This document shows positions 17,752 through 25,637 of a DNA stretch of 43,508 nt, piece by piece. Below the pieces are notes generated by a model. That model had not been told where the DNA came from and ran no database searches. It saw only the letters and a program-made list of their open reading frames with translations. The DNA is from Thiofilum flexile DSM 14609 (lineage in GTDB: Bacteria; Pseudomonadota; Gammaproteobacteria; Thiotrichales; Thiotrichaceae). The first letter of the stretch is position 1; every line of letters begins with the position of its first letter. The DNA is taken from assembly GCF_000380185.1 (NCBI RefSeq), contig NZ_KB904817.1, positions 1-43,508 on the forward strand. Reading direction: 5' to 3'. Both the position numbers and the translations under genes were made by a program.

Positions 17752-19803
17752 ATGAAACATTGGGATGTACGCTACTTAGTACTAACCTGTTTAATGAGTA
17801 CAGGGGTGAACGCAGCAACCCTGCCACCCTTAGAGTTAGATACTACTTTACCCGCCCTAGATACTACCCTGTCAGCGGAAGAGGCTCTAAGCTCTTTAGA
17901 TACCGAGGTAGATACTACTTTGCCCCCGACACTAGCGCCGTTAGGGGGTGAGGAGGCGGTATCTACTGAGTTAACAGACGAAGTGAGTAGTGCTCCTGAT
18001 CCCACCGCCGATAGCACGGATGATTTTAGGCGTTTGCCCGAAGAAGCACCGAGTTTAGGTGAAGACCCGGCTAATGCCTATTCTGCCAAAACCACTAAAG
18101 CCAATTCAAAAACGAAGGCGAAGACGGAAGAGTCTCCGGTTAAAGTATTAGTTAGTGGGGCAGATAAAGCCCTCTCCGATAATATTATTGCTTTTTTACC
18201 TTCGAGACGGCGCTTAAATTGTGCCACCTCCGCCGAGCGCATTGAGCGTTTTATTACCGCAGCACAGCCCAAGCTACAAGCCTCCGCCGAGGCTATGGGC
18301 TATTTTGATGCCCAATTTAAGATGGTTTCAGCGCGGCGTGATGGTTGTTGGGTATTGAATGTAGCGGTGAACCCCGGGCAGCCCATTCGTGTCAAAGGCA
18401 TGGATATTAAGCTGGAGGGGGCGGGAGCTAAGACTAAAGATTTTGCTACTATTCAGCAAAATCCTCCCTATCGCATGGGGGATGTGATGGTGCATCAGCC
18501 CTATGAAGATTACAAAGACAAGCTAAATCAAAAAGCCAATCAACTAGGTTATTTCGACGCCGAATATAAAACCAAACAGCTACAAATTGACCCGGATAAG
18601 CATGAGGGTAAGGTAGTCTTGGATTATAAAACAGGCGAGCGTTATCGTTATGGGCAAGTGGATGTAAAACAAGATGTGCTTAACCAAAAAGTGCTTAATC
18701 GCCATTTAAGGGTGCGTCCGGGTGCCTATTATGATTCGGAACAACTCCTTAAGCAGCAACGTTTATTAGAAGCCAGTGGCTATTATAAGGATGTACAAAT
18801 TGTCCCTAAGCACATGGAGGCTAAAGACAAACAGATTCCAGTGAGTATCCAAGCCGAACGTAATAAGCGTTATACCTATACAGGCAAAGTAGGCTATGGC
18901 GCTGATACCAAAGCACGTCTAGAAGCGAAAATGGATACCAACTGGGTGAATGACAAGGGGCATAAATTAACGGTAGAGGGAGTCGCCTCTAAACCAGAAG
19001 CGTCTTTGGGATTTAATTATAAAGTGCCTTTGTGGGAGCCAGAATTTGAGTTTGCGGCCTTAAGTGGGGGCTGGGAACGTTCTGATACTAATCAGATTAA
19101 AAGTTCGGCTTTAAAAAGTGAGTTTAGTTATAATCGCCGTAATGATAGTGACTGGCAACAAACCGCCTTTGTTTCAACCCTTTATGAGACGACTCAGACC
19201 GAGGGAAGTGATAAAACGACTTCTCAATTAGCGTTGTTAGGCGCTAGGATGAAAAAAACGGAGGCGGATGATTTATTGTATGCCACCCAAGGCTGGCAAT
19301 TAGCCGCCGAGTTACAAGGGGCTAAAAAAGGCTTATTAAGCGATCAATCTTTAATACAAGGTAAGGTTTCTGGTAAGTATTTAAAAACCTTGGAGTCCAA
19401 AAATAAGGTCATTTTACAAGGGGCTTTGGGCACTACCTATACCGATGATTTGACCACCACCCCTAAATCATTACGCTTTTTTGCGGGTGGGCAAAACTCT
19501 GTGCGGGGCTATGATTACCAGTCTTTAGGTACGAAGGATGCCAATGATGTGGTGATTGGGGGTAAGCATTTATTAACAGGAGGGGTTGAATTTGAAAAGC
19601 CTGTCCGTGACAAGTTTAGTTTGGCTGCATTTGTGGATGCGGGTAATGCGTTTGAAGATTGGTCGAATTATGACATTAAATGGGGGGTGGGCTTAGGAGC
19701 ACGTTATCAATCCCCCATAGGCCCGATTCGTGTCGATGTTGCTGTGCCTAAGGATAATTTTAATGATTTCCACTTTTACTTTAGCTTAGGACCTGATTTG
19801 TGA
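17752..19803 (+). CDS. tamA: Translocation and assembly module protein TamA (Omp85 family)
   Basis: Outer membrane beta-barrel that works with TamB in outer membrane protein insertion and phospholipid transport. It is 683 residues against about 577 in E. coli. After a signal peptide ending GVNAA comes an extra low-complexity stretch (about residues 25-130) rich in Asp, Thr, Leu, Glu and Pro, with repeats such as LDTTLPALDTTL and EVDTTLPP. POTRA domains follow (about 135-380: YFDAQFK, GYFDAEYK, LLEASGYYKDVQI), then the barrel with the Omp85 VRGY motif at 584-587 and a C-terminal strand ending YFSLGPDL. Its stop overlaps the tamB GTG by four bases. Confidence 0.92.
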   Translation: MKHWDVRYLVLTCLMSTGVNAATLPPLELDTTLPALDTTLSAEEALSSLDTEVDTTLPPTLAPLGGEEAVSTELTDEVSSAPDPTADSTDDFRRLPEEAPSLGEDPANAYSAKTTKANSKTKAKTEESPVKVLVSGADKALSDNIIAFLPSRRRLNCATSAERIERFITAAQPKLQASAEAMGYFDAQFKMVSARRDGCWVLNVAVNPGQPIRVKGMDIKLEGAGAKTKDFATIQQNPPYRMGDVMVHQPYEDYKDKLNQKANQLGYFDAEYKTKQLQIDPDKHEGKVVLDYKTGERYRYGQVDVKQDVLNQKVLNRHLRVRPGAYYDSEQLLKQQRLLEASGYYKDVQIVPKHMEAKDKQIPVSIQAERNKRYTYTGKVGYGADTKARLEAKMDTNWVNDKGHKLTVEGVASKPEASLGFNYKVPLWEPEFEFAALSGGWERSDTNQIKSSALKSEFSYNRRNDSDWQQTAFVSTLYETTQTEGSDKTTSQLALLGARMKKTEADDLLYATQGWQLAAELQGAKKGLLSDQSLIQGKVSGKYLKTLESKNKVILQGALGTTYTDDLTTTPKSLRFFAGGQNSVRGYDYQSLGTKDANDVVIGGKHLLTGGVEFEKPVRDKFSLAAFVDAGNAFEDWSNYDIKWGVGLGARYQSPIGPIRVDVAVPKDNFNDFHFYFSLGPDL

Positions 19804-22800
19804 AGTTAAGTCGCTCCCTGATTTGGACGCCCTTATTAGCGGTAATAGTACTGATTGTATTGGTATTATTGTTGGTAGGGTTTTTAGTATTTAGCCAAGC
19901 AGGGGCGCGTTTGGTTGCTCAACAATTAGAGCAACGGGTGGCGGGACTGACCTTTGAGGGAGTAGAGGGGGCATTAGGGGGCGACTTAAAGGCTAAGCGG
20001 ATTTACTGGCAGGAAGAGGGGATAGAGGCTAGCGTGACCGTAGAAGGCTTAGATCTGAACACTAAACTAGGCTTACGTCCCGAATTAAAGCGTACCTATA
20101 TGGATCGTCTGATTATTAAAACCCCGCCAGCAGGGCCAGGGCCGGTCGTGATTCCTGAGTTATCCGATCCATTAGAGGCCTTACTATCCGATGTACGTGT
20201 TAAGGAGTTTGAGTTTTGGGTCGGAGCGAGTGCCCTTAAGCTCTATGATGTCAGTATTAAAGCTAATAATGCAGCGGGTATGCTCTATGTACAGGAGCTG
20301 AGTGCTCGTACTCATGCCAATCCTAATCAAGGTTTAATGCTGAACCTTCAAGGGCAAATGGCCTTAGGTGCTTTACATACAGGTGAGTTTAACGGGCGAG
20401 TAGCGTCGGTTGATCCGAATCTTGGGATTGGTACCCTCGATTTAAATATAACAGGGCCTGATAATGCCTATAAGATTGCGGGACAAGGGCAATGGTCTTA
20501 TCGTAATTCACCCCGCTATACCGTCAAGATCTTAGGCTCCGGTAATATGGAGCAATTAAATATATATAAACTTACCCTTACTGATCCAGAAGGAGGAAGT
20601 GAGGGGCAAGCTAAGGGCTATCTCAATTGGTATGACCCTATCTTATGGCAGTTAGATATGACCACGCACGGGGTTGATCTAGCCGACTATGGTGTAAGTA
20701 CACCAACTAGCTTAGATAGCCATATCGTTTGGAGTGGTGAGCGTAGTCAGGTTAAGCGTTCTACACATTGGGCTATTCACTCACTGACTGGGCAGGTACA
20801 GAATTATCCAGTACGCGCTACTGGGGAAGTTTTGTCTGAGTTTGGAGTGTTTGAGGTTAGAAGTTTAGATGCAGCACTCGGTGATAATAAGCTCACGATT
20901 GTGGGCAAAGCGGATCAAGACTTGGCGATGGATTGGTCATTGAATGCACCCAAGTTAGCACAAATCTCACCACAATTATCCGGTGCCTTAAAAGGTAATG
21001 GAGCCTTACAAGGGCGCTTAGATGGTTCGCAGTTAACGGTTGATATTCAAGATCTTAGTGGTCATTTACAAGGGTATAAACTCAAAGCTACAGGGCAATT
21101 GGCGCGGAATAATAATACCCTATCAGCGCGTAATGTACGGGTTTATATGGGGGATAATGTGCTGACCCTAGATGGGGATGCCCGTGATGATTTAGGTTTA
21201 GTGTGGACTTTAGATGCTAAAAACCTTACTCAACTCAAGCCCACCTTAAAAGGCAATATTAGTGGCAGTGGGCGCATAGAGGGGCAGCTCGATAAAAAGC
21301 ATTTGGATCTGCATATTGATGGTCTAAAAGGGCAAATCAACCAGCTGCCTATTCAAGCCCAAGGCCAATTAAAGCTACAAGACGATATTTTGAGTGCTCA
21401 AGATATGCAGGTGTTTGTGGGTACGAATCGGCTAACTTTTGATGGCAGTAGTGCTGCCAATACCTTAGGGCTGAATTGGCAATTAGAGGCGGATAAATTA
21501 TCTACACTTCATCCTAAACTGAAAGGTAATCTAAGTGCATCGGGTAATGTAAAGGGTTTAATGGATGGCTCAGAATTTGACCTGAGTATTGCCAAAATGC
21601 GCGGGACTTTGCAGGATTATCCTATACAAGGTACGGGACAACTTAGCTTAAAAAACAAAGCCTTGAGTGCTAAAGATGTGATCTTAACGCTAGGGGATAA
21701 TAAGCTCATTTTGAATGGGAGTGCGGCGGAAACTTTAGGTTTGGATTGGCAGTTGGAAGCTAAAGCCTTAAAGCAACTACACCTAAAGCTTAAAGGGCAG
21801 GTGAGTGCAGAGGGTAATCTTAAGGGTTTAATTGACGGTTCACAGTTAGATATTGCCATTCAAAGGCTAAAAGGCAATGTGCAAGATATCCCATTAGAGG
21901 CTAAGGGCTTATTACATTTTGAAAATAAAGTCTTAGAAGCACGTAACCTAGTGATTGATACCGGTAAAAACCAGATTACCCTCGATGGTAGTGCTGGGGA
22001 TAGCTTGGGCTTAGATTGGAAGGTGAGTGCTAATGATTTAGGGCAGTTATCGCCTAAGTTAACTGGCAAGCTCAATGGGCAGGGTACGTTAAAAGGCACT
22101 TTGGATGGCAGCCAGCTTGATATTAGTATCGGCCGCTTAGAGGGTAAGATTAATCAATACCCTATTAATGCCAAAGGCCAATTAGCACGGCGTGATCAGG
22201 TGTATTCGGCGCGGGATTTAGTGGTTAATGTGGGTGATAATCAATTAGTACTCAATGGTAATGCTGGAGATGCTTTAGGTTTAGATTGGCGTATTAATGC
22301 CTCACGCTTAGAGCAGTTAAGTCCCAAGTTACAAGGTAATGCCGAAGGGTCGGGCACTTTAACCGGAGCCTTAGATGGTTCACGCCTAGATGTCACGATT
22401 AAGCGCCTGACTGGTAAGGTGCAGGGCTATCCTCTTAATGTATCCGGCGGCTTAAAGCGTCAGGGGGATGCGATTACGGCACGTGATTTAGTGGTGGAGT
22501 CGGGTAAAAATCGGGTGATACTCAATGGTAGTGCTACCGATAGCGCGGGGGTAAGTTGGCAAGTCGAGTTAAAAGATCTCTCACAGATTAAACCTAATCT
22601 AACCGGACGAGTGCAAGGGCGCGGACGTCTACAAGGTTTACTAGATGGCTCACGATTGGATGTTAGTATTCAAGCCTTAGAGGGGCAGGTACTGCAATAT
22701 CCTTTGACGGCGACTGGGCAAATAGGCTTACGTGATAAGCAATTATCCGCAAAAGATTTAGCCATTAACTTAGGGCAAAATCGTATAGTGCTCAATGGTC

Positions 22801-25637
22801 AGGCTTCCAACCGTTTGGGTGTTAATTGGTCATTAGAGGCGAAAAATCTCAGTCAAATCCATCCTGAGTTGCAAGGCAATCTACAGGGTAATGGACGTAT
22901 TGAGGGAGCCGTGGATGGCTCAACGCTTACTCTGAGCATTAGTCAGCTCAATGGTCAGTTACGAGAGTATCCTCTATCCGCTCGTGGCTCTATTACCCGA
23001 CGCAATAATGTGTTTAATACGGAGGGATTTAGTGTTGATGTGGGGCAAAATCGCCTGTTACTCAGTGGTCAAGTGTCTGATCGTGTGTCAGTACGTTGGC
23101 AGCTAGATGGGCGTAATCTCAGTCAATTACATCCTAGCTTAAAAGGTAATTTAAAAGGGCGGGGTAGTTTAACGAGTCGACGGGATGGCTCAAATTTGAG
23201 CGTCGATATTGAGCAATTGACGGGGCAATTAAATGGCTACCCTCTCGATGCTACAGGTCAGATCGCCCAACAAGGCAAAGATTGGATCGTAAAACAAGGC
23301 CGGGTTCGTGCGGGCAGTAATGCCTTGCAATTATCAGGTAAGGTAACCGAGCCAATCGATGTGCAATGGCGCATTGATGCTAAGCAACTTTCACAAGTGT
23401 TGCCTGGTTTAGCTGGTAGTATCCAAGGCCAAGGGACAGCAAAAGGTAAATGGTCTTTGCCACAAGTCCAAGGACAGGTTCAAGGCACTCAATTACGTTA
23501 TCAGGATTTAAGTATTGAAAGTCTGGTGGCTGATATTGGGCAAAGTGGGGGGCAATATCGTGCTAATGCGACTTTGAGAGGTATTCGCCAAGGCGATAAT
23601 GTGGTGAGCCAAGCCGTACTGGAGGCGCAAGGTACACCAGAAAATCATCGCGTACGTGTCAGTGCCATACATAAAGAGGGCAAAATTGATCTCAGTGCGG
23701 TGGGGCGTTGGCAAAATAATGTCTGGGCGGGCAACATACAATCGGCTGATTTAAGAGATACTGCCGCCGGTAATTGGCGTCTAATCCGCCCAGTTACCAT
23801 GCAGGTTAGTAATAAGCAATTGGCAAGTGGTGAAATTTGCCTCTCTAATGGTCAGGGTAATATTTGTGCTCAGCCTGCTATATCCAGTTCAGGGGTAGCA
23901 GCTACCGGGCGTATTCAAAATATGCCTTTGGTGATGTTAAAGCCTTGGTTGCCTGAGAATATTAAATTAGCCGGTTCGGTCGATGGATCCTATCAGGTGG
24001 TTTGGCGTAAAGGACAAGGATCGGGTCAAGCTAAGTTACGCTTCCCCGATAATACAGTACAAATCCGCCAAACGAATGGGCAGTTTGAGCAATATACCTA
24101 TCACAATGCTCAAGTAGTAATCACTTTAGTGGGCAAAACAGTCAGTCTACAAGGTCAAACTCAAGTTGATCCCTATGGTGCGGTAAAACTAAATGGGCGC
24201 ATTGACTTAGTCGAGCAAGGCGATCCACGCATTCAAGCGGTGATTAGTGCCGAGTCGCCTAATGTGGCTTGGCTAGAAAAAATGACCCCCGATTTGGGTG
24301 AGATCAAAGGACAAGTTCAATTAGAAGTTGAGGTGGTGGGGACACTGAGTAAGCCTACTCTGCGTGGTATTGCGCGTTTGCAAAATGGGCAAGCTTATCT
24401 ATCTGAAACGGGTGCCTTACTCCAAGATATTAACTTAACTGTAAGAACTGTCGATGCGCGTAATGCCACTATTACAGGCTCATTAAGGGCAGGCTCTGGG
24501 GTATTACAAGCTAAAGGTACGATGCAGTTTGGCAATCTACCGAAATGGTCAGCCGATGTGCAGCTACAAGGCGAGCGTTTACTCTTAATGGATACTCACG
24601 AAATTCAGGCGTGGGCTTCGCCTAATTTACGCGTTACGGCTGTTCCCGGTACGGTGAATATTCAAGGGAGTATTTTTATTCCTGAAATGGTGGTGAGCTT
24701 GCGCGAGTTACCTAGTTCTGCCAGTGTGCGCTCAGACGATGTGGTCATAGTAGGCAGGCGTGCGCAAGCTAATAGTGATGTGGTGATTGTTGGAAGGCGC
24801 GGGCAGTCTCGTACTAGTAGGGTTGCCCAAGCACCACAAGGTGGTAATTTACCCGGAGCTGGGCGGCCTAATCTGCAAACGCAGGATGAACCTTTGAATA
24901 TTAATCCCGATGTGACCATTGAGTTAGGGGATAGAGCCGTGTTTTCAGGGTTTGGTTTAGATGCCAAAATGCGCGGACGTTTAAGAATTGCCCGCACCCG
25001 GCAAGATATTATTGGTTTAGGTACTTTGAGTATTGTGGATGGGGTGTATAAGGCCTATGGGCAAAATCTTAGAATTGAGCGGGGGCGGCTCATTTTTAAT
25101 GGCAATCTGGAAAATCCGGGCTTAGATGTTCAAGCCGTGCGCACTATAGAGGATGATACGGATATTAAGGTTGGGATTACGCTCAATGGGACAGTACGTC
25201 GCCCAGAGTCAACCTTGTTTTCCTCACCTACACAAACCCAAAGCGATACCTTGAGTTACTTATTAACAGGACATTCGGCGAGTACCCTGTCTGGTTCAGA
25301 TACTAATGTGTTGCGTCAAGCAATCATGAACTTAGGCATTACGGGTGGCGAAAGTATTGCTAATCAGCTAGGTGTGGCTTTAGGGCTGGATGAGGTAGGC
25401 ATTAATACTAAAGGTGATGACTATCGTGAGAGTGAGTTGCTATTGGGCAAGCGATTAGGGCCACGTCTCTATGTAAAATATATCGTTGGAGTCTTTGATT
25501 CCCTACAAAGAGTAGCTATTACCTATCAGATTAATAAGCGTCTACAGCTTGAGGCTCAATCGGGTAGGAAGCAAGGTGTTGATTTTATTTATAAAATAAA
25601 TACAGATAAAGGCCCTTTTAGGCGTTCAAATCGCTAA
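19800..25637 (+). CDS. tamB: TamB, AsmA-like bridge protein with expanded repeats
   Basis: Inner-membrane-anchored periplasmic bridge partner of TamA, implicated in lipid transport to the outer membrane. It is 1945 residues, far above the roughly 1260 of E. coli. A signal anchor (about 7-33) is followed by beta-rich sequence, then nine tandem units of about 90 residues from Leu393 to about 1203. Each unit follows the pattern LxGxxxGxGxLxGxxDGS, then YPLxAxGQ, LSAxDLVV, GxNxLxLNGSA and LGLxWxLxAKxLSQLxPxL. The conserved C-terminal TamB/DUF490 domain closes the protein (ARTRQDIIGLGTLSIVDGVY; LLTGHSAS; GLDEVGINT). DVVIVGRR occurs twice, at about 1647 and 1660. The start is GTG, overlapping the tamA stop by four bases. 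No frameshift is seen. Confidence 0.93.
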   Translation: MKLSRSLIWTPLLAVIVLIVLVLLLVGFLVFSQAGARLVAQQLEQRVAGLTFEGVEGALGGDLKAKRIYWQEEGIEASVTVEGLDLNTKLGLRPELKRTYMDRLIIKTPPAGPGPVVIPELSDPLEALLSDVRVKEFEFWVGASALKLYDVSIKANNAAGMLYVQELSARTHANPNQGLMLNLQGQMALGALHTGEFNGRVASVDPNLGIGTLDLNITGPDNAYKIAGQGQWSYRNSPRYTVKILGSGNMEQLNIYKLTLTDPEGGSEGQAKGYLNWYDPILWQLDMTTHGVDLADYGVSTPTSLDSHIVWSGERSQVKRSTHWAIHSLTGQVQNYPVRATGEVLSEFGVFEVRSLDAALGDNKLTIVGKADQDLAMDWSLNAPKLAQISPQLSGALKGNGALQGRLDGSQLTVDIQDLSGHLQGYKLKATGQLARNNNTLSARNVRVYMGDNVLTLDGDARDDLGLVWTLDAKNLTQLKPTLKGNISGSGRIEGQLDKKHLDLHIDGLKGQINQLPIQAQGQLKLQDDILSAQDMQVFVGTNRLTFDGSSAANTLGLNWQLEADKLSTLHPKLKGNLSASGNVKGLMDGSEFDLSIAKMRGTLQDYPIQGTGQLSLKNKALSAKDVILTLGDNKLILNGSAAETLGLDWQLEAKALKQLHLKLKGQVSAEGNLKGLIDGSQLDIAIQRLKGNVQDIPLEAKGLLHFENKVLEARNLVIDTGKNQITLDGSAGDSLGLDWKVSANDLGQLSPKLTGKLNGQGTLKGTLDGSQLDISIGRLEGKINQYPINAKGQLARRDQVYSARDLVVNVGDNQLVLNGNAGDALGLDWRINASRLEQLSPKLQGNAEGSGTLTGALDGSRLDVTIKRLTGKVQGYPLNVSGGLKRQGDAITARDLVVESGKNRVILNGSATDSAGVSWQVELKDLSQIKPNLTGRVQGRGRLQGLLDGSRLDVSIQALEGQVLQYPLTATGQIGLRDKQLSAKDLAINLGQNRIVLNGQASNRLGVNWSLEAKNLSQIHPELQGNLQGNGRIEGAVDGSTLTLSISQLNGQLREYPLSARGSITRRNNVFNTEGFSVDVGQNRLLLSGQVSDRVSVRWQLDGRNLSQLHPSLKGNLKGRGSLTSRRDGSNLSVDIEQLTGQLNGYPLDATGQIAQQGKDWIVKQGRVRAGSNALQLSGKVTEPIDVQWRIDAKQLSQVLPGLAGSIQGQGTAKGKWSLPQVQGQVQGTQLRYQDLSIESLVADIGQSGGQYRANATLRGIRQGDNVVSQAVLEAQGTPENHRVRVSAIHKEGKIDLSAVGRWQNNVWAGNIQSADLRDTAAGNWRLIRPVTMQVSNKQLASGEICLSNGQGNICAQPAISSSGVAATGRIQNMPLVMLKPWLPENIKLAGSVDGSYQVVWRKGQGSGQAKLRFPDNTVQIRQTNGQFEQYTYHNAQVVITLVGKTVSLQGQTQVDPYGAVKLNGRIDLVEQGDPRIQAVISAESPNVAWLEKMTPDLGEIKGQVQLEVEVVGTLSKPTLRGIARLQNGQAYLSETGALLQDINLTVRTVDARNATITGSLRAGSGVLQAKGTMQFGNLPKWSADVQLQGERLLLMDTHEIQAWASPNLRVTAVPGTVNIQGSIFIPEMVVSLRELPSSASVRSDDVVIVGRRAQANSDVVIVGRRGQSRTSRVAQAPQGGNLPGAGRPNLQTQDEPLNINPDVTIELGDRAVFSGFGLDAKMRGRLRIARTRQDIIGLGTLSIVDGVYKAYGQNLRIERGRLIFNGNLENPGLDVQAVRTIEDDTDIKVGITLNGTVRRPESTLFSSPTQTQSDTLSYLLTGHSASTLSGSDTNVLRQAIMNLGITGGESIANQLGVALGLDEVGINTKGDDYRESELLLGKRLGPRLYVKYIVGVFDSLQRVAITYQINKRLQLEAQSGRKQGVDFIYKINTDKGPFRRSNR
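20976..23408 (+). repeat. Nine tandem 270-bp repeats within tamB
   Basis: 2433 bases hold 811 codons, or nine units of about 90 codons. Each begins with a form of LKGNxxGxGxLKGxLDGS. The bases differ between units while the protein pattern is kept, so the array is diverged. A tenth unit starts at 23409 (LAGSIQGQGTAKG) and quickly loses the pattern. Confidence 0.9.

Follow-up and report, generated by a model that had tools for sequence, protein, structure and literature searches.

An expanded TamB repeat array in Thiofilum flexile that covaries in length with other periplasm-spanning proteins

How is periplasm width determined, and how do the many machines that span this gap adjust when it changes? 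E. coli tolerates a change of only a few nanometers, according to the available text of PMC8824477. The question is raised anew by a 1945-residue TamB from Thiofilum flexile DSM 14609, encoded within a window of 43,508 nucleotides (the whole stretch of DNA analyzed: NCBI RefSeq assembly GCF_000380185.1, contig NZ_KB904817.1, positions 1 to 43,508 of the forward strand). The features of the locus are collected in Table 1.

Table 1. Coordinates of tamA, tamB and the parts of TamB within the window.
Feature	Position	Strand	Description
tamA	17752..19803	+	683 aa; overlaps tamB start by 4 bases; N-terminal extension of ~125 aa before POTRA1
tamB	19800..25637	+	1945 aa, GTG start; inner-membrane-anchored beta-groove protein
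N-terminal anchor helix and first groove part	19800..20771	+	TamB residues 1-324
Unit 1	20772..21020	+	Residues 325-407, degenerate; groups with first units of other species
Unit 2	21021..21290	+	Residues 408-497, unit HMM
Unit 3	21291..21563	+	Residues 498-588, 91 aa, unit HMM
Unit 4	21564..21833	+	Residues 589-678, unit HMM
Unit 5	21834..22103	+	Residues 679-768, unit HMM
Unit 6	22104..22373	+	Residues 769-858, unit HMM
Unit 7	22374..22643	+	Residues 859-948, unit HMM
Unit 8	22644..22913	+	Residues 949-1038, unit HMM
Unit 9	22914..23183	+	Residues 1039-1128, unit HMM
Unit 10	23184..23453	+	Residues 1129-1218; counterpart in E. coli TamB ~480-570; groups with last units elsewhere
TamB canonical middle	23454..24488	+	Residues 1219-1563
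C-terminal TamB domain PF04357	24489..25598	+	

The protein is a member of the TamB family in every feature tested. Its C-terminal domain PF04357 scores 203.3 bits against a Pfam cut-off of 22.4, and the whole-protein NCBIfam equivalog NF047952 scores 854.7 bits against 825, in a match spread over 11 stretches that the repeats may inflate. In a structural model, helices are followed by regular strands, corresponding to an N-terminal membrane anchor and a continuous beta groove. The neighboring frame is TamA by its domains (PF01103, PF17243 and PF07244, all above cut-offs), with the equivalog NF047950 at 432, below its cut-off of 625. The novelty lies in the variant itself and chiefly in the way its length covaries with that of other spanning proteins; the portions of the literature available to us contained no report of TamB arrays or of joint lengthening of spanning proteins.

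An original prediction, made from the letters alone, had seen nine 90-residue repeats at 20976-23408. The frame and the regular array were both recovered: in the self-comparison it had called for, an offset of 90 scored 1581 over residues 326-1123, and ten shuffles peaked at 53. A unit HMM delineated ten units of 90 residues spanning residues 325-1218 (positions 20772-23453), so that nine is correct for the well-formed units (residues 408-1218, 111-126 bits each) and ten is the total once the degenerate first one (residues 325-406, 69.9 bits) is counted; the true borders lie ~200 bases earlier and ~45 later than predicted. The motifs said to mark each unit are frequent without being universal, as DGS starts eight of the nine well-formed units and LG[LV].W occurs in six. 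Draft assemblies, here of 71 contigs, could misassemble repeats, and the array might therefore be an artefact, an idea for which we found no support. The units are only 30-54% identical at the protein level and Tandem Repeats Finder reported no DNA-level tandem repeats in this stretch, pointing to an old array in which an assembly error is unlikely. Moreover, six genomes of the neighboring genus group g5 carry arrays of 8-16 units (L037, L039, L048, L058, L077, L082), and we consider an artefact practically excluded.

Alignment to E. coli TamB (1259 aa; PDB 9xdc, 5vtg) placed the array precisely. The two proteins share family, N-terminal anchor, groove, C-terminal domain and a TamA neighbor, and the T. 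flexile protein has a shorter N-terminal part. Overall, residues 213-307 and 1113-1933 are alignable; against 9xdc, residues 213-307 correspond to 376-468 and residues 1113-1656 to 465-1015. The array thus splits two adjoining E. coli segments, as expected of a clean insertion at one point that duplicated a segment present singly in E. coli, where one counterpart (~465-562) stands against ten units in T. flexile. A model of residues 19-1218 (mean pLDDT 82.4, pTM 0.44) has seven strands and a short helix per unit, and these scores make the local fold credible but not the overall curvature; for Thiothrix lacustris, the model of its two-unit TamB has pLDDT 76.0. Strands of the array model are two-faced, with an alternate-residue hydropathy difference of 2.74 over 53 strands versus 1.67 +/- 0.16 in 500 shuffles, which in the model is the pattern that a greasy groove requires, and the units are predicted to continue the TamB groove. 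Extension of a groove by a repeated strand module is also described, in the available text of PMC12800296, for the bridge-like lipid transfer proteins VPS13 and ATG2, a likeness in mode of working; the T. flexile unit differs in being 90 aa long with clear tandem-duplication similarity. Foldseek comparison of the array model with the PDB gave generic beta-protein matches with TM < 0.3 among the best 50 of 458, and these were set aside.

Within its family, T. flexile falls among Thiothrix, Thiolinea, Leucothrix and Cocleimonas. The nearest named record was Thiothrix lacustris, 60% identical over the C-terminal 416 residues of TamB, in a searched set without members of the genus Thiofilum. We sorted relatives into genus groups: g2 includes Thiothrix lacustris; g4, Cocleimonas flava; g5, Thiolinea disciformis and T. 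eikelboomii; g7, Leucothrix pacifica; and g8, a MAG labelled Leucothrix mucor. Counting units across related species, as had been proposed, revealed a range of 1 to 16: Thiothrix proteins have 1-2 unit-HMM matches, the six g5 genomes 8, 10, 10, 10, 13 and 16, and T. flexile 10. Thiolinea disciformis has 8 and T. eikelboomii 10. Other lineages have amplified other periods, namely 95 residues in Cocleimonas, 96-99 in g6 and 112-113 in g7 and g8; the shortest period, 71 aa, occurs in L054 (G002) over TamB residues 408-1228. In a tree of units from ten proteins, first units cluster together and last units likewise, many inner units are species-specific, and the units of the sister pair G004/G024 correspond position by position. 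The nearest neighbor lies within the same protein for 12 of 16 units in G407 and 4 of 10 in T. flexile. From shared ends and species-specific interiors we infer a two-unit ancestor that expanded from inside, more than once. On this model, one internal 90-residue segment would have been duplicated in tandem from the ancestral two-unit form, kept in Thiothrix, and the extra units, flanked by the inner-membrane end on one side and the TamA-binding end on the other, would extend the bridge without changing its kind.

The claim of a longer bridge calls for an independent witness, a point the original prediction had missed. Since relatives with few units exist, we examined other proteins that cross the same gap. 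E. coli PqiB forms a syringe of ~230 Å that is proposed to span the periplasm (PMC10897342, available text); it thus shares the spanning task of TamB with an unrelated fold, and in T. flexile it is the needle, not a groove, that is lengthened. The T. flexile homolog (G000:C57) has PF02470 in three stretches, and its flanking frames are PqiA- and PqiC-like by eye; because it scores 395 bits against a cut-off of 525 for the equivalog NF008070, we term it PqiB-like. (The PqiA-like protein preceding this gene, in L258:6026-7293, is seemingly in two frames of 212 and 226 aa.) The needle measures 225 residues, versus 103-117 in 13 g2 genomes. PqiB was fetched for 50 of the 63 family genomes and TamB was measurable in 45, with both available in 44; six TamB sequences taken from named records (L073, L077, L082, L089, L090, L097) were paired with their genomes by identical frame length, and in three g3 genomes with a second, short TamB the long copy was used. 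Over the 44 genomes, the TamB middle and the PqiB needle correlated strongly (Pearson 0.87, Spearman 0.90). Phylogenetic contrasts gave r 0.885 with a slope of 0.114, and were robust to removal of g3 (0.882), thinning to 32 taxa (0.883) and use of an MCE-only tree (0.875). The relationship also held inside genus groups (Pearson/Spearman 0.95/0.99 in g5, n=6; 0.99/1.0 in g7, n=4; 0.97/0.92 in g8, n=5). It was weaker by rank in g2 (0.80/0.50, n=13) and in g3 (0.95/0.34, n=5, resting on one genome), and absent from g4 (-0.19, n=7), where the TamB middle hardly varies (640-741). Needles of the Leucothrix-type g7 exceed the length expected from their TamB.

Two further spanning proteins followed the same trend. 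The Pal linker, which runs from the outer membrane to the peptidoglycan, tracked TamB in 21 genomes, 20 hand-picked to span the range plus T. flexile (Spearman 0.90, contrasts 0.76). TolA did so less strictly (Spearman 0.74 in 36 genomes, contrasts 0.57 in 35); it was matched in 56 of 63 genomes and fetched for 48, the 36 used being those with a complete frame, a membrane helix and a TamB. Its exceptions run both ways: G409 (303 aa) and G413 (371) are short with a long TamB, and G033 (506) is long with a short one. T. flexile has the highest measured TolA (a 795-aa frame) and Pal linker (206 aa). Both score above their family cut-offs, with TIGR02794 at 152.8 versus 59.45 for TolA, TIGR02802 at 135.5 versus 125.35 and a lipobox for Pal, tolQRAB-pal operon order, and confirmed TolB and Pal domains (G000:C9). 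In the same contig (L233, L278), TolA has helical repeats of ~39 aa, and the 337-aa Pal frame a Gly/Ser/Gln-rich linker. By contrasts, regions serving as controls, which do not have to cross the gap, were flat against TamB: the MCE region (-0.04), PqiB tail (0.04), Pal domain (0.13), TolB (0.01) and TamA core (-0.02). One control was not flat, the TamB C-domain having a weak relation to the needle (contrast r 0.40, p 0.007), and, uncorrected for phylogeny, the MCE region (Spearman 0.36, p 0.017) and TolB (0.42, p 0.07) showed some association.

Could such growth be neutral, with repeat-prone genomes or coil-prone proteins simply gaining functionless tandem copies? The needles of TolA and PqiB, being coils of low complexity, can easily slip, and the T. 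flexile copies do carry such repeats; even shuffled TolA scored 231 in a scan for internal repeats. But the three strongest scores in that scan belonged to spanning proteins (TamB 1581, TolA 1267, PqiB 366; next 172) and only six of 185 frames (257 kb) exceeded 120, in a sample that held the TolA and PqiB stretches because they were already fetched and counted one neighbor twice. TamB units, moreover, have diverged from one another, adopt a fold in the model and show no repetition at the DNA level, and neutral growth does not predict the covariation inside g5, g7 and g8. We therefore regard neutral expansion as very improbable, and favor instead a wider gap as the driver of TamB lengthening, with the PqiB needle, the Pal linker and, less strictly, the TolA stalk lengthening too; TolA and PqiB of T. 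flexile would likewise have grown by internal repeats.

A straight helix rises 1.5 Å per residue, so the contrast slope of 0.114 needle residues per TamB residue equals 15.4 Å per 90-aa unit (17.4 Å by the ordinary slope), although the T. flexile PqiB repeats contain proline, against the straight-helix assumption. By the same conversion TolA gains 21-23 Å per unit, above TamB's own value; the Pal linker, if fully stretched, would gain up to 22 Å. A length of 178-246 Å is given for E. coli TamB in the available text of PMC11014939, which over 1259 aa amounts to 12.7-17.6 Å per 90-residue unit. The needle's gain per unit falls within this range, so two unrelated rulers agree. The same source describes the E. 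coli AlphaFold model as a 178 Å supercoil that stretches to 246 Å to reach TamA. Length and span are thus not strictly tied, and extra units might be slack or storage, giving more coiling or a larger lipid load while the periplasm keeps its usual width. Slack does not, however, predict covariation with the PqiB needle or Pal linker, and it would leave unexplained why TamB and PqiB gain nearly the same length per unit; we think it unlikely.

Because the PqiB needle, Pal linker and TolA are also longer in the same genomes, we favor, at a probability of roughly 0.7, the reading that the TamB groove was lengthened by tandem duplication of an internal segment to bridge a wider periplasm. Compared with a two-unit Thiothrix, T. 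flexile has eight more units, equivalent to 10-14 nm, and ~115 more needle residues, equivalent to up to 17 nm. Its periplasm is thus probably 10-17 nm wider. The longer bridge or unusual envelope foreseen by the original prediction gains from three further proteins that lengthen with TamB and from a PqiB slope near the geometric value, while the width itself is deduced from sequence. Part of the extra width would lie between the outer membrane and the peptidoglycan, and the longer TamB would presumably still transfer phospholipid. The original prediction had also noted that close relatives with the same periplasm and far fewer units would speak against a longer bridge. Such few-unit relatives exist (1-2 in Thiothrix), but they also have a shorter PqiB needle, Pal linker and, with one exception, TolA, so that, judged by their protein lengths, the periplasm is not the same. 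Among the papers that our literature search listed, none bore on periplasm width in Thiothrix or Leucothrix.

TamB length is also partly confounded with loss of YhdP, an alternative or additional cause that the original prediction overlooked. With YhdP, and mostly AsmA too, lost, TamB could have been enlarged as the sole AsmA-type phospholipid bridge, width not being the cause. Of 60 family genomes, 16 have YhdP (PF13116, >200 bits), each belonging to g2 or g6, and none has YdbH; AsmA (PF05170) had no match in T. flexile, 9/9 g5, 7/7 g7 and 10/12 g4 genomes. By three family searches TamB may thus be the only AsmA-type bridge in the T. flexile cell. The TamB middle measures 355-551 aa in genomes with YhdP and 432-1711 in the 29 measured genomes without it (Mann-Whitney p 2e-7), and the three AsmA-type proteins of E. 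coli compensate for each other (PMC12800296, available text). Yet the TamB-needle correlation persists both without YhdP (r 0.77, n=28) and with it (0.81, n=16), losing YhdP would not account for the longer PqiB, TolA and Pal, and some YhdP or AsmA absences may be gaps, as many genomes are drafts. We consider YhdP loss improbable as the explanation in place of width, but it may accompany TamB lengthening and contribute; a wide gap to which YhdP failed to adapt could account for both. Compared with those of g2, the AsmA frames of g3, g4 and g8 seem longer.

Under the wider-periplasm reading, we lean toward a more general proposal, namely that periplasm width changed stepwise, up to about twofold, within this one family, with TamB, PqiB, TolA and Pal growing jointly, in many cases through internal tandem duplication, and serving as a genomic ruler, and with YhdP dropped. 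The Lpp+21 strain of E. coli, with a periplasm stretched by 3-4 nm, shows that envelope machines depend on width, and in it one tether was changed in the laboratory, with Pal and others becoming essential (PMC8824477, available text). In the family of T. flexile, by contrast, several bridges and a tether appear to have changed naturally. The family would then be a repeated natural experiment, and either side of it has cultured members (Thiothrix lacustris versus Thiolinea and Leucothrix). Its TamB lengths, from 1 to 16 units, form a natural series in which to ask whether such a bridge has to reach both membranes, and some of its lineages have TamB as the sole AsmA-type bridge detected by the three family searches. 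If the proposal is true, periplasm width could be predicted for uncultured bacteria, at ~15 Å per TamB unit.

TamB repeats extend beyond this family. Four Thiomargarita/Thioploca-type genomes (L119, L124, L129, L133), probably outside the family as their C-domains are 31-33% identical, carry arrays with a period of 162 aa, an independent expansion; these were the only four to score at least 150 internally among 46 frames of L103-L150 (without L107 and L130). YhdP is absent from three of the four, as would suit its loss as a cause, but L133 has both array and YhdP, and L139 and L113 lack a strong YhdP yet have no array. No three-MCE PqiB frame was found in six genomes, these four and two related ones. 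Among the matches listed, the ten longest TamB outside the family were L151-L159 and L066. Two of these, L151 and L153 from the gammaproteobacterial family f85, are genuinely long rather than read through from upstream: their internal repeats score 353 and 335, with offsets near 102, 162 and 264; the other seven of L151-L159 scored at most 114, and in L152, L154, L155 and L157 the N-domain match starts only at residue 250-601. L066 has a single 184-aa self-match (score 185).

One part of the original prediction gained no support, that an extra N-terminal linker in the neighboring TamA may go with the array. Among 31 genomes measured, linker length had no association with TamB length (Pearson 0.13, contrasts 0.09), and we rejected the linker as a partner of the array. 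The ~125 residues before POTRA1 in T. flexile (17752-18126) are the longest of the 31 and rich in acidic residues, Thr and Pro.

Several relatives have unusual tamB arrangements. Three genomes encode two TamB paralogs each, one with one unit and the other with three or four: G009 (L033/L034), G015 (L031/L049) and G022 (L045/L051). In a Thiothrix nivea MAG (L072), tamB is in two frames of 586 and 1334 aa with 3 and 7 units, either a broken gene or a sequencing error. Finally, Ca. Thiothrix singaporensis (L076/G477) has a single 1609-aa frame in which a start that is TamA-like by eye runs into TamB.
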